Assembly: GCA_025353015.1 (NCBI GenBank)
Contig: JANXRM010000482.1
Span: 1-36,046, forward strand
Length of the DNA stretch: 36,046 nucleotides
Direction of reading: 5' to 3'
Source: Hyphomicrobiales bacterium
GTDB lineage: Bacteria > Pseudomonadota > Alphaproteobacteria > Rhizobiales > Hyphomicrobiaceae
Shown here in pieces: positions 13,105 through 18,968 of this stretch. The notes beneath the pieces are model-generated. The model saw only the letters and a program-made list of their open reading frames with translations. It searched no databases and had not been told where the DNA came from. Every line of letters begins with the position of its first letter. Position 1 is the first letter of the stretch. Position numbers and translations under genes: made by a program.

Positions 13105-13136
13105 AGGGTGCAATTGGGCGTTGCCACTTGCACCCT
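13105..13136. repeat. 9-bp perfect inverted repeat between two genes
   Basis: AGGGTGCAA at 13105-13113 is exactly mirrored by TTGCACCCT at 13128-13136, with a 14-base loop. It lies between the CMD stop and the dehydrogenase start. The tract after it is pyrimidine-rich (TCCTTCC) rather than a T-run, so it is not a clear intrinsic terminator. It may be a dispersed intergenic palindrome or an attenuating hairpin between the two genes. Confidence 0.5.
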
Positions 13137-13168
13137 TCCTTCCGCGGCTAAACTCCGGAGCATCGACT

Positions 13169-14137
13169 ATGAAAGTTGGATTTATCGGGCTCGGCACCAT
13201 GGGTGCGAGCATGGCTGCGAATTTGCAGACCTACCTGTTGAAATCGAACCACGGCCTCGTCGTCTACGACGTCAACCGCCAGGCTGGCGATGCCCACGTT
13301 GCGAAGGGCGCAACCTTCGCCGAGAGCCCAAAAGCGCTTGCCGAACAGTGCGACGTGATTTTCGCCTCGCTGCCAGGGCCGCCTGAAGTGGAGGCTGTGG
13401 CGCTCGACAAGGACGGCTTGCTCGCGGGCATGAAAAAGGGCGCGGCCTTCTTCGATCTGTCCACCAACTCGCCGACGCTCGTGCGCAAGATCCACGCGCT
13501 TTTCGCCGAGAAGGGCCTGCATATGTTGGATGCACCCGTCAGCGGCGGCCCGAACGGCGCGCGTTCGGGCAAGCTCGCGCTTTGGATCGGCGGCGAGGAA
13601 CGCGTCTACAATGAGCACAAAGCTTTCCTCGATGCGATCGGCGATCAGGCCCGTTACGTCGGCCCGATCGGAGCGGGCTCCGTCGCCAAGCTCGTGCACA
13701 ACTGCGCTGGCTATTGCATCAACACCGCACTCGCCGAAGTCTTCTCCATGGGCATCAAGGGCGGCGTCGAACCGCTGGCGCTCTGGGAGGCGGTGCGGGG
13801 TGGCGCGCGCGGCCGTGGCCGCACGTTCGACGGCATGGTCGACCAGTTCCTGCCCGGCAAATACGAGCCGGCGCAGTTCGCCTTGAAGCTCGCGCACAAG
13901 GACATGCGCCTTGCCACCGAGCTTGGCCGCGAACTTGGTGTGCCGATGCGCGTCGCCAATATGGCCTATGCCGAGATGACCGAGGCCATGAACCGCGGCT
14001 GGGAAAAGAAGGACTCGCGCTCGCCGATGCAATTGCAGTTGGAGCGCGTGGGCCTGGAGCTGAAGGTCGACCCGCAGCGCATCAAGGAGGCGCTCGAACG
14101 CGACCCACCCGCCAAGGGTGACCCAAAGCGCAGCTGA
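13169..14137 (+). CDS. NAD(P)-dependent beta-hydroxyacid dehydrogenase (3-hydroxyisobutyrate dehydrogenase type)
   Basis: A 322-residue cytoplasmic oxidoreductase. The N-terminal Rossmann motif is GFIGLGTMGASMAANL at residues 4-19. The substrate-binding motif DAPVSGGPNGARSGKL spans 121-135. The catalytic lysine is Lys174 in GAGSVAKLVHN, and an all-helical C-terminal domain follows. The family includes 3-hydroxyisobutyrate, tartronate semialdehyde and related dehydrogenases; the sequence alone does not choose between them. The ATG at 13169 follows a CGGAG. Its stop overlaps the next gene's ATG as TGATG, so the methyltransferase is translationally coupled to it. Confidence 0.88.
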   Translation: MKVGFIGLGTMGASMAANLQTYLLKSNHGLVVYDVNRQAGDAHVAKGATFAESPKALAEQCDVIFASLPGPPEVEAVALDKDGLLAGMKKGAAFFDLSTNSPTLVRKIHALFAEKGLHMLDAPVSGGPNGARSGKLALWIGGEERVYNEHKAFLDAIGDQARYVGPIGAGSVAKLVHNCAGYCINTALAEVFSMGIKGGVEPLALWEAVRGGARGRGRTFDGMVDQFLPGKYEPAQFALKLAHKDMRLATELGRELGVPMRVANMAYAEMTEAMNRGWEKKDSRSPMQLQLERVGLELKVDPQRIKEALERDPPAKGDPKRS

Positions 14138-14994
14138 TGGAGTTGATCGGTATGGACCAGGACACTGAAAGTCAACACATCGAGCGGCACTATGCGACCG
14201 GCGGCATCGCCGACCGCGTACTCTCGGCGGTGCGAGCGACGCTCAAGCCGGGCGAGGCTTTGACACCAGATGCTCTAGCGCCTGCTGATCACTTCCACGG
14301 GCGCGGGCTCGTGGCCACGCGCGAGATGGTGGCGTTGCTGGCGCCCAAATCGAGCGACCGGATTCTCGATATCGGCTCGGGCGTCGGCGGCCCGGCCCGC
14401 TGGATCGCGAGCAAATATGGCTGTCACGTCACCGGCATCGATTTGACCGCCGATTTCTGTCGCGCAGCGGAATCGCTGAATGCGGCGACCGGCATGAGTA
14501 CGCAGGTCACCATCGTGCATGGCAGCGCGCTGGCGCTGCCGTTTCCCGATGCGAGCTTCGACCGCGCCTATTCGCAGAACGTCGTCATGAACATCGCCGG
14601 CAAGGTGACGTTCTATCGCGAGGCGTGCCGGGTCCTGAAGCCCGGTGGCATTCTGGTGATGTCGAATCTGGCCCGCGGCTCCGGCTCCGAACCTGACTAT
14701 CCGACGCCGTGGGCTGCAACCGCTACCACCAGTTTTCTTTCAACGATCGACGAAACGAAAGCTGAGATCGCCGCGGCAGGCCTCGAAATCGTGGCGTTTA
14801 AGGATACGTCGGCGGATGCCATGAAGGCCCAAGTAGCAACGCTCAATCGCCTGCAAACGGCAGGCCTGCCGCCGCTGAGCGCCCATCTCATCGTCGGCCC
14901 GCGACTACGGGAATACCAGATCAATTCGAACCGCAATTTCGTCGAGGGACGGATCATCTCGCTCGAAGTCGTCGCCCAGCGCCCTGTTACCTGA
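14137..14994 (+). CDS. SAM-dependent class I methyltransferase
   Basis: A 285-residue cytoplasmic methyltransferase. Motif I is RILDIGSGVGGPARWIA with the acidic ribose-binding residue in VTGIDLTADF. Later motifs are GSALALPFPDASFDRAYSQN and RVLKPGGILVMSN. This arrangement resembles the UbiE/sarcosine-dimethylglycine methyltransferase group, but the acceptor is not evident. The start at 14137 overlaps the preceding stop; a second in-frame ATG lies at 14152. The last 90 bases overlap, on the opposite strand, the 3' end of the broken small membrane-protein gene. Confidence 0.85.
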   Translation: MELIGMDQDTESQHIERHYATGGIADRVLSAVRATLKPGEALTPDALAPADHFHGRGLVATREMVALLAPKSSDRILDIGSGVGGPARWIASKYGCHVTGIDLTADFCRAAESLNAATGMSTQVTIVHGSALALPFPDASFDRAYSQNVVMNIAGKVTFYREACRVLKPGGILVMSNLARGSGSEPDYPTPWAATATTSFLSTIDETKAEIAAAGLEIVAFKDTSADAMKAQVATLNRLQTAGLPPLSAHLIVGPRLREYQINSNRNFVEGRIISLEVVAQRPVT

Positions 14995-15300
14995 CGCAAT
15001 GACCGGTTCGCTGACACGTTTCATGCCCAACAACCGCTGAAAAACCGTGCCACCGTTACGGCCGAGAAAAATTAAGTAGCCGATGATGGCCGCGACCAGG
15101 ATGAGCGCCGCCCAGCCTTCGAGGCGGAATAGACCCGACTTCAAGACCAGACCATTGACCGGACCAGCGATAAATGCCGGGGCATTCTGCTTGAAGACGC
15201 GTGCGATCACGAGGCCGCCTGCGAAAAAGATGAGAAGAAAGTCCAAGATGCCCGCAATCGGGCGCTTTCAGAACGGTTGCGTGGGGACGTATTTCGCCAT
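14905..15300 (-). pseudogene. Small RDD-like membrane protein gene interrupted by an in-frame TGA
   Basis: Starting at the ATG at 15298-15300 the frame reads MAKYVPTQPF, then TGA at 15268-15270. It continues in the same frame as KRPIAGILDFLLIFFAGG, a second helix LEGWAALILVAAIIGYLIFLG, and GGTVFQRLLG. Relatives I recall have a tryptophan at this position (QPFWKR), so TGG to TGA is the likely change. The start has a near-perfect AGGAG. The gene may be dead, may be rescued by re-initiation at the TTG at 15246, or the base may be a sequencing error. The C-terminal 30 or so residues after the last recognisable motif overlap the methyltransferase gene and look like run-on. No function is known. 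Confidence 0.6.
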
Positions 15301-15306
15301 GTGATG

Positions 15307-15311
15307 CTCCT
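15307..15311 (-). promoter_or_regulatory. Ribosome-binding site for the TGA-interrupted gene
   Basis: AGGAG on the minus strand, six bases before the ATG at 15300. It is one of the best ribosome-binding sites in the window. It shows that translation should begin before the in-frame TGA, which makes the TTG at 15246 an unlikely original start. Confidence 0.65.
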
Positions 15312-15437
15312 GGTCGACGGCTCGATGGACGAAAACGCTGCACATTGAGTGCTCGGTTTATCTCGCGCATTTTCGGTCAACCGTCTGTGATCTGCGTCAC
15401 AGGCGAAGCGGTCCGGGAAAATCGCAGGCGCATAGCC

Positions 15438-17660
15438 TCAGATGAGCTTGATGTTTTTCAATGGCAGCGTTCGCACACGTTTCCCCGTCGCAGCGCAGAT
15501 GGCATTGAGCACGGCTGGCGCCACGACGCCGATCGCCGCCTCGCCGACGCCGCCCCAAAAATCGCCCGAAGGCACCAGCACGCATTCGACAACGGGCATT
15601 TCGGCGAGCCGCAAGACGTCATAGCTGTCGAAATTCGCCTCGACCACACGACCGTCCTTGATCGTGATTTCCTGATGGAGCAGGGCACTGAGCGCGAAGG
15701 CCACCGACCCCTCCAGTTGCGCCTCGACCAGGTCCGGGTTGACGATCTGACCGGCGTCGATGGCCATGACAACGCGATGCACTTTCGGTTTCCCGTCGGC
15801 CGATACCGAAACTTCGGCGACAGCGGCACAATAGCTGCCATAGGCCATGGCTTGCGCCAGGCCGCGGAAGATACCGGGCGGATCGGGTTGGCTCCAGCGA
15901 GCCTTTTCGGCCGCCGCCGTCAGCACGGCCAGGTGGTTCGGGTGCGCTTTCATCATCGAGCGCCGGAATTCATAGGGGTCACGCCCCGCAGACTTCGCCA
16001 ACTCATCAACGAAGCATTCGAGATAGATAGCGTTTTGCGTCGAATGCACGCCGCGCCACGAGCCGACCGGCACCGGCGTCCTACGCATGGCATGATCAAT
16101 ATAAAGATTGGGGATCGAATAGCCGATCTGCGCTTCGCCAGCCTCTGCAAAAAAGCCTTGGAACATGCGCGGATCTTTACTGCTCTGTGTGGCCTTCGGC
16201 GTCTGCGACGCGATGATCGACTGGCCCGAAACGCGCATGATGAGGCCTGCGATCTCGCCTTTATCATCCACGCCACCGGATAGCCGGCACTGCGTCGCCG
16301 GGCGGTAGAAGCCGTGCGCGGTATCCTCCTCGCGCGACCATAAAAGCTTGACTGGAACGCCCGGAATTTGCCGGGCAATCTCGACTGCCTGACGAATGTA
16401 ATCGTGGCGTGTCCGCCGGCCGAAGCCGCCGCCGATGTGCGTGCGGTAGATTTCGGCTTGCGCCACCGGCAGGCCCGCCGCTTGGGCGGCAACCTTGAGC
16501 GCGCCGTCTGCATTCTGCGTCGGAGCCCAGACCTCCACCCGCTCCGGCGTCCACAAAGCTGTGGCATTCATCGGTTCCAGCGTCGCATGGTGCAGGAACG
16601 GCATGCTGTAGATCGCATCGCTGCGCCTGGACGACGCGATGGCTTTAAGAGCATCGCCGTGCGCCGTTCCAATGAAGGCGTCCCGCGTTTCCAGGCCTTC
16701 CTTCAGGCTCTCGGCAATGCTCTCGCTACTGAACAGGGCATCCGGCGGATTTTGCCAAGTAATGGGCAGCGCACTGAGCGCCTGATGCGCTTGCCACCAG
16801 GTATCAGCCACAACGGCAACAGCCGTCTCGCCAGCTTTGAGAACGTAGCGGACGCCGGGCTTGGTGGCGATGGCTGCGGCATCGAACGATCCGATCGTGC
16901 CGCCAAAAACCGGGCAATCCTTGATTGCAGCCGAGAGCATGCCAGGCAATTTGACGTCAATGCCGAAAACGGCGCGGCCGTTCAGCTTGTCGGCCGTATC
17001 GAGGCGCTTCACGCGTTTGCCGGCAATTCGCCATTTTGACGGTTCGCTGAGGCGAAGCTGTTGGGGTTCGGGAACGGCGAGCTTGGCCGCAAAGGGAGCC
17101 AACCGGCCATAAGTCGCGACACGGCCGCTACGGCGATGCAAGACGAGACCGTTGCCGGACGTGAGTTCGGCGGCGGGAACTTTCCAGATGGCTGCGGCAG
17201 CCCCGAGAAGCATGTGTCGCGCAGCAGCGCCAGCCGTTCGCATGTACTCCTGTGACGTACGGATGCCACGGCTGCCCGACGTCACGAAATCGCGCCAGAT
17301 GCCCTGCCGCGCCAAATTTTGCCCCGGCGTTGGAAAGTCGATTTTGACCTTCGACCAGTCGCAACCGAGTTCCTCCGCGACCAGTTGGGCAAGCCCTGTG
17401 GCGGTGCCTTGGCCCATCTCGGAGCGCGCCACGCGCACCGTGATCAGATCGTCCGCTCCGATCTGCAGCCAGGCCGTGACCTCGGGCTCCGCCATCTGCG
17501 CCAACGCCCGCTTGGCGTGCGTTTGCTGCACACCGCCGGGAATTGCTACGCCCAAGGCGAAGCCGCCGCCAGTGGCAGCAACGCCTTGCAACAAAAGCCG
17601 GCGGGTCGAGCCTTTGCGCGGCATGGGGCGCGGAACAGCCTTTCGTGTCTGCCAGGGCAT
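15438..17660 (-). CDS. Xanthine dehydrogenase family molybdopterin-binding subunit (isoquinoline 1-oxidoreductase beta type)
   Basis: A 740-residue molybdopterin-cytosine-dinucleotide-binding large subunit. An N-terminal Tat signal with STRRLLLQGVAATGG predicts export to the periplasm, as in the IorB group. Cofactor-region motifs include ARSEMGQGTATGLAQLVAEE, THIGGGFGRRTRHDY, GSWRGVHSTQNA and WGGVGEAAIG, the last with the catalytic glutamate. Such enzymes hydroxylate N-heterocycles or oxidise aldehydes and normally pair with a small two-[2Fe-2S] subunit. No such gene adjoins it. The start is uncertain: ATG at 17660, or ATG at 17624, which sits closer to the Tat motif; neither has a clear ribosome-binding site. 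The substrate is unknown. Confidence 0.88.
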   Translation of the reverse strand: MPWQTRKAVPRPMPRKGSTRRLLLQGVAATGGGFALGVAIPGGVQQTHAKRALAQMAEPEVTAWLQIGADDLITVRVARSEMGQGTATGLAQLVAEELGCDWSKVKIDFPTPGQNLARQGIWRDFVTSGSRGIRTSQEYMRTAGAAARHMLLGAAAAIWKVPAAELTSGNGLVLHRRSGRVATYGRLAPFAAKLAVPEPQQLRLSEPSKWRIAGKRVKRLDTADKLNGRAVFGIDVKLPGMLSAAIKDCPVFGGTIGSFDAAAIATKPGVRYVLKAGETAVAVVADTWWQAHQALSALPITWQNPPDALFSSESIAESLKEGLETRDAFIGTAHGDALKAIASSRRSDAIYSMPFLHHATLEPMNATALWTPERVEVWAPTQNADGALKVAAQAAGLPVAQAEIYRTHIGGGFGRRTRHDYIRQAVEIARQIPGVPVKLLWSREEDTAHGFYRPATQCRLSGGVDDKGEIAGLIMRVSGQSIIASQTPKATQSSKDPRMFQGFFAEAGEAQIGYSIPNLYIDHAMRRTPVPVGSWRGVHSTQNAIYLECFVDELAKSAGRDPYEFRRSMMKAHPNHLAVLTAAAEKARWSQPDPPGIFRGLAQAMAYGSYCAAVAEVSVSADGKPKVHRVVMAIDAGQIVNPDLVEAQLEGSVAFALSALLHQEITIKDGRVVEANFDSYDVLRLAEMPVVECVLVPSGDFWGGVGEAAIGVVAPAVLNAICAATGKRVRTLPLKNIKLI

Positions 17661-18224: not shown

Positions 18225-18968
18225 TCAGCGCTGCGGCTGGGCATCGGCGCGTCGGCCTTTTCCGCCCTTTTCGGGAACCGACGACAGGGCTTCACCGCAA
18301 GCTGGTGACAATTTGTCCCGGTTGCTCTTGAGGCACTGAACGATGCCACCGCTGCCCTTCTGGACATTCGAGCACAGCGCCTCGCGGTCGGCTTTGCAGG
18401 CCTGCCGGAAATTGCGCATTTGGGAACCGACTTGCGCAATCGCTGCCTGACAGTCCGGAGCAAGCTTGCTCTGGTTCTCCTTGAGGCATTTAAGACGCTC
18501 GCCGCCACCCTTGGCAGCGTTTGCGCAGAACGTTGCGGCATCTGTCCGGCAGGCTGCCATGCGGCCACCGCGTCGGTTTTCAGCATTGGCAGCAAGCGGC
18601 GGTGAACCTTGAGCCGGTGTAACCTGAGCCGGTGTAACCTGAGCCGGTCTAGGCTGAATTGGTGTACCTTGTGTTGGGATCGCTGTGCCCTCGACGGCCG
18701 CAGCGCCAGACTTGCTACCGTTCTGGCCGCGAGCATCGAGTGCTGTCGCGCAATCTGGTGACAGCTTGTCCTTGTTTTCAACCAGACACGCCAAGCGCCG
18801 TCCGCGCCCCGCTTCCACGTTCTGGCAGAACGTCCGGGCGTCTGTACGGCACGCCGCCAGCCGGCCACGGCCGCCACCTTGCGGCGCCGCGTCCTGCGCG
18901 TTCAGCACGCCGGGTGCGGCGCAAAGCGTAAGGAGTATGGCAATCGGCGCAAATCTACGGAACGGCAT
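18225..18968 (-). CDS. Exported protein with three cysteine-rich (GLG1-like) repeats
   Basis: A 247-residue protein with a Sec signal peptide (about residues 1-24, ending LNA). Three repeats have cysteines at 40/48/61/73, 140/148/161/173 and 191/199/212/224. In each the spacing is exactly C-x7-C-x12-C-x11-C, giving six likely disulfides. The pattern, including NKDKLSPDC and relatives, matches the cysteine-rich repeat family related to Golgi protein GLG1. Between repeats 1 and 2 is a Pro/Gln/Thr linker with PAQVT tandem units. The C-terminus is basic. It is probably periplasmic or secreted. It is a single-gene unit with its own terminator. Function is unknown. Confidence 0.8.
   Translation of the reverse strand: MPFRRFAPIAILLTLCAAPGVLNAQDAAPQGGGRGRLAACRTDARTFCQNVEAGRGRRLACLVENKDKLSPDCATALDARGQNGSKSGAAAVEGTAIPTQGTPIQPRPAQVTPAQVTPAQGSPPLAANAENRRGGRMAACRTDAATFCANAAKGGGERLKCLKENQSKLAPDCQAAIAQVGSQMRNFRQACKADREALCSNVQKGSGGIVQCLKSNRDKLSPACGEALSSVPEKGGKGRRADAQPQR
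18611..18655. repeat. Three 15-bp tandem units inside the cysteine-repeat gene
   Basis: GAGCCGGTGTAACCT occurs exactly at 18611-18625 and 18626-18640, with a diverged third copy at 18641-18655. On the coding strand it adds PAQVT-type pentapeptides to the linker between cysteine repeats 1 and 2. The unit is a multiple of three, so copy-number change keeps the frame. Confidence 0.8.

Follow-up and report, generated by a model that had tools for sequence, protein, structure and literature searches.

In the excerpt of PMC7568657 that bears on the RDD family, three conserved residues are described, Arg, Asp and Asp. The locus studied here lies within a window of 36,046 nucleotides (the whole stretch of DNA that was analysed) from a Hyphomicrobiales bacterium. 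It shares with the RDD family (PF06271) basic residues before helix 1, two membrane helices, the motif GGT-x-x-x-R after helix 2, and the helix 1 residues Ala16 and Asp20, both invariant in 22 relatives. Arg13 and Asp20 are present in the window copy; position 13 varies among the relatives, and the second family Asp was not found in the window copy. It differs from the family in that it matches only positions 3-83 of the 137 of the profile, and in that it has an in-frame TGA where the relatives have Trp. The locus is the genome's third copy of a two-helix relative of the RDD family, 78-91 residues in length. The features of the locus are as follows.

15307..15311, minus strand: Shine-Dalgarno-like AGGAG, six bases before the ATG
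15271..15300, minus strand: ATG (15300-15298) and nine further sense codons, MAKYVPTQPF, read from the sequence
15268..15270, minus strand: in-frame TGA; at the aligned position 21 of 22 relatives have Trp and one has Leu
14992..15267, minus strand: rest of the frame of the RDD-like two-helix membrane protein, including GGTVFQRLLG, assigned from profile matches, alignment and model
14905..14991, minus strand: open continuation of the frame to a TAG at 14907-14905, past the usual end of the relatives and opposite the 3′ end of the methyltransferase gene
14137..14994, plus strand: convergent methyltransferase gene (Methyltransf_11, from Pfam), stop codon 14992-14994
15438..17660, minus strand: molybdopterin-binding subunit like those of xanthine/aldehyde dehydrogenases, for which no NCBIfam cut-off was reached; ends in TGA

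The arrangement that the original prediction had read, namely AGGAG, six bases, ATG, ten codons ending in QPF and then TGA, is found in the sequence, and the frame contains no second stop or frameshift up to 14907, as was also claimed. After the TGA (15270-15268), 120 sense codons follow on the minus strand before the TAG at 14907-14905. Scored against an assumed anti-Shine-Dalgarno tail, the match upstream of the ATG at 15300 (–8.1 kcal/mol) is the best of twelve ORF starts scored in the window; the other eleven, which were placed mechanically and may not be the true starts, range from –0.3 to –7.8 kcal/mol. No sigma-70-type promoter was found at 14850-15700, the single terminator-like match obtained in a scan of the same region lies inside the gene and equals the shuffle mean of 1.0, and an Rfam scan of 14900-15460 returned nothing up to an E-value of 1.

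Over the stretch that starts one codon past the TGA and runs to residue 103, codon usage scores 0.52 bits per codon. This exceeds the score of 80 of 89 equally long pieces of genes (92 codons; mean 0.34, sd 0.14), which were drawn from the same 20 window ORFs on which the score was trained. Both remaining frames of the minus strand are negative (–0.30 and –0.36), and on the opposite strand one frame has a weakly positive value (0.24). Codon usage past the TGA is thus gene-like and best in its own frame, so that the frame is more than a chance opening and the stop looks recent. The two hydrophobic helices proposed earlier also appear in an AlphaFold model of moderate confidence (mean pLDDT 73.7), at 12-35 and 63-81, together with a short third helix at 86-90. 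Searching the PDB for similar folds with Foldseek returned nothing at E ≤ 0.001 for this model.

The suggested resemblance to RDD proteins proved real. When the N-terminal codons were included and the TGA was read as Trp (residues 1-103), Pfam RDD (PF06271) matched with 29.8 bits (cut-off 24.1), while the part after the TGA alone scored 23.0 bits, just below the cut-off. Pfam RDD matches at E ≤ 0.01 were obtained for 6 of the 11 members of an alignment of the group (A3), and an NCBIfam scan of three RDD-like proteins gave nothing at E ≤ 0.01. Two uninterrupted copies lie in tandem elsewhere in the genome (G000:C275:1418-1675 and 1746-1994), after a frame that we take to be panB-like and before one that we take to be GntR-like. 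In a further genome (G042) a single copy lies in comparable surroundings, where the presumed panB-like frame is a piece of only 126 codons; these names come from the look of the sequences. The two C275 copies and the G042 copy, which are 40, 33 and 42% identical to the window copy, share its motifs, and in them nine or ten residues precede the Trp column; unlike the window copy, they are uninterrupted and end at about G-I-x-RPQ.

With a profile built from eleven sequences, matches were found in 17 of 397 genomes of the order, some of them being longer proteins or fragments, and in 6 of 103 genomes of the family. A search of the class at E ≤ 1e-8 found only the window's own genome (1 of 385) and no close relative of the window copy (the order, family and class groups overlap). 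At E ≤ 0.001 the profile had no match in any of three genomes of the same genus, two of which are only 85% and 88% complete. Scanning contigs with the single protein as query found no relative, while a two-row alignment found eight loci, and a tblastn search of plasmids found nothing. A single-sequence search with the TGA as X recovered 3 of the 103 family genomes, compared with 6 by the profile; since it is the less sensitive method, absence from its results means little.

Alignment of the conceptual translation to these homologues, the check proposed with the original prediction, placed the TGA in a column that holds Trp in 21 of 22 relatives, Leu in one and a stop in none. The TGA therefore stands at a conserved Trp, just before helix 1. 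The Leu belongs to the second of the genome's own paralogues on C275 (L013, within 1418-1994), a copy that is itself strongly diverged. The relatives have 8-16 residues ahead of the Trp column (from starts chosen by script), although the letters MAKYVPTQPF themselves are poorly conserved. Before the count of 22, fragments and doubtful loci (L005, L011, L032, L034, L035-L038 and L045) were dropped, among them L032 with an unknown base in the codon, as were duplicates (L016 and other loci at the same places) and the two parts of one relative in G375 (L033 and L040), the first of which has the Trp. For the constancy count and the tree, the near-duplicates L015, L025 and L026 were further removed, leaving 20 rows. 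Two profile rows that had appeared to contain an internal TGA (G253 and G132) were rejected, their stops lying at the end of the match.

The window copy is markedly diverged. Its mean identity (0.35) is the lowest among the 20 rows, its end branch (1.97; median 0.36) is the longest, it is changed at 4 of 16 near-invariant columns, and about 14 residues are inserted between its helices, as in no other row. Some stop-free relatives are nearly as divergent: of the near-invariant columns, 4 of 18 are changed in one of the genome's own C275 copies (C275b) and 3 of 17 in the G019 copy, and the end branches of G040, C275b and G019 measure 1.84, 1.68 and 1.67, that of G040 without any such change (0 of 15). 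Given how close these stop-free relatives come to the window copy, divergence alone is no proof of decay. The view that any decay must be very young is compatible with the stop itself but is not supported for the copy, given its end branch, insertion and altered near-invariant positions. Decay may also be under way elsewhere in the family, since the relative in G375 (C11:256510-256739) is split over two frames by either a frameshift or a sequence error.

The relatives end no more than about ten residues past the motif after helix 2, and the window frame continues for some 30 codons beyond their usual end, running antisense to the methyltransferase gene; the end at 14905, given earlier as the end of the gene, is therefore probably not the natural end of the family. 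The C-terminal end of the methyltransferase aligns with the ends of its counterparts in two genomes of the same genus (G002 and G003), where identity is 57-58% and the alignment reaches residue 284 of 285. In both of these the gene faces a frame that we take to be acetyltransferase-like, and the site of the window copy is thus not shared with them; 16 further window genes were tested, and none of these has a match in the 5.5 and 10 kb around the methyltransferase gene in G002 and G003. This facing frame was considered as a match to the 3′ part of the RDD-like frame (tblastn E 0.004 in G003, 0.033 in G002) and set aside as chance, because by eye the frames end differently relative to the methyltransferase. 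Together, the divergence, the 3′ end and the unshared site suggest that the window copy was a loosely constrained extra copy even before it acquired the stop. Elsewhere around the locus, the frame at 15438..17660 lies upstream of the RDD-like gene on the same strand; on the plus strand, across 13121-14994, a gene with the 3-hydroxyisobutyrate dehydrogenase NAD-binding domains overlaps the methyltransferase gene by one base at 14137 (TGA into ATG); and at 18225-18968 on the minus strand lies a frame in which the cysteine-rich repeat PF00839 (Cys_rich_FGFR; E 2.6e-18) occurs in three stretches.

The explanation that we favour, with a probability of about 0.68, is a nonsense mutation at the conserved Trp codon of a third, dispensable copy of the RDD-like two-helix gene. 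Translation would most probably begin at the ATG at 15300 and end after a peptide of ten residues, and the membrane protein would be made at most in traces, through ordinary near-cognate misreading. The two paralogues on C275 would make the loss of the window copy tolerable. This account supposes a genuine base at the stop, a relaxed constraint as the source of the divergence, and an effective loss of the protein. With bacterial pseudogenes that carry a single nonsense mutation, the locus shares one in-frame stop, an otherwise open frame and membership of a multi-copy gene, with nothing distinctive about it. Against a nonsense mutation stand the single lesion and the good order of the ribosome-binding site, start and codon usage, which would also fit an error in the consensus or a functional recoding.

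An error of sequencing, assembly or strain mixture, with a sense codon at this place in the true genome or in the greater part of the population, is the next most likely explanation after a nonsense mutation, though an unlikely one. Such an error would leave what is seen here, a single stop where Trp is conserved, while the frame is otherwise intact and its start strong, in an assembly of 530 contigs; but the copy is also divergent with a changed 3′ end, and consensus substitution errors are rare compared with real pseudogenes. If the base is real, decoding by tRNA-Trp could yield a small, useful amount of full-length protein, with the stop as a throttle. Insertion of Trp would restore the family residue exactly, and the frame past the stop still looks coding; in the excerpt of PMC13092985, background readthrough of UGA is shown for E. 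coli and a type of tRNA-Trp with a 4-pair anticodon stem is tied to UGA decoding. However, a search with an assumed tRNA-Trp pattern (up to 3 mismatches; the genome is 91.83% complete and genes far from the pattern could escape) found one gene, whose anticodon is CCA and whose anticodon stem has all 5 pairs, and neither a UCA anticodon nor a 4-pair stem. Moreover, none of the 22 relatives shares the TGA, and TGA is a normal stop here, ending 12 of the 20 listed window ORFs, all of which makes such readthrough improbable. A wider form of this idea, in which the UGA is kept as a throttle whose leaky decoding by the Trp or selenocysteine machinery would supply a trace of a third RDD-like protein, diverged for a low-protein role, we consider quite improbable. 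Re-initiation, giving an N-terminally shortened membrane protein, appears very improbable. The TTG at 15246 is in frame 21 bases past the TGA, but its Shine-Dalgarno match is weak (–3.4 kcal/mol, against –8.1 at the ATG) and a start there would lose the conserved Trp, the basic residues, the invariant Ala16 and the beginning of helix 1; the match at the GTG at 15210, –5.8 kcal/mol when computed at an offset of one base from the codon, falls among those of the eleven other starts, but a start there, at residue 31, would lose most of helix 1 with the invariant Asp20.

Selenocysteine was worth testing as the product of the UGA, because selB (427.9 bits against a cut-off of 242.25, which 2 of 14 control genomes exceed) and two tRNA-Sec genes above the cut-off (exceeded in 5 of 14 controls), both with a UCA anticodon, are present in the genome, which in all likelihood decodes selenocysteine. 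One contig (C209, L082) carries part of a formate dehydrogenase, selB and a tRNA-Sec together; the second tRNA-Sec is on C524 (L084), and C25 (L083) has another selB, truncated at the end of the contig, so that the genome has two Sec sets or the bin is mixed. The formate dehydrogenase, used as a positive control for a Sec codon, scored 689.5 bits, below its cut-off of 814.2, and matches from profile position 488, being cut by the contig end, presumably before the Sec site, whose position we assume. Downstream of the TGA in the window there is a short hairpin (GCCCG-AUUG-CGGGC). As set out in the excerpt of PMC13188914, most bacterial SECIS elements have 16-37 nt from the UGA to the apical loop and a G at loop position 1 or 2, with a subset falling outside this model. 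The hairpin here breaks both rules, its loop starting after 9 nt and beginning with AU. Under a strict model no unbulged hairpin passes at this TGA, while 2 of 40 random TGAs of the window have one, and the 71-nt stretch that was folded does no better than shuffles (z 0.45); a bulge-tolerant test, which the window TGA fails (–7.1 kcal/mol), was uninformative, since 35 of 40 random TGAs pass. The relatives have Trp or Leu at the site and none of the 22 has Cys, and we regard a selenocysteine codon as extremely improbable. For the programmed readthrough or re-initiation raised by the original prediction, and equally for selenocysteine, no positive evidence emerged beyond the presence of the Sec machinery in the genome.

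If a nonsense mutation is indeed the explanation, the finding is an ordinary one of little significance, one more recently interrupted paralogue, and automatic annotation would miss the RDD-like gene or begin it at the TTG. If instead the stop is decoded in the cell, the locus would be an example of how reading through a UGA can restore a conserved Trp, in a bacterium equipped with selenocysteine machinery as well.
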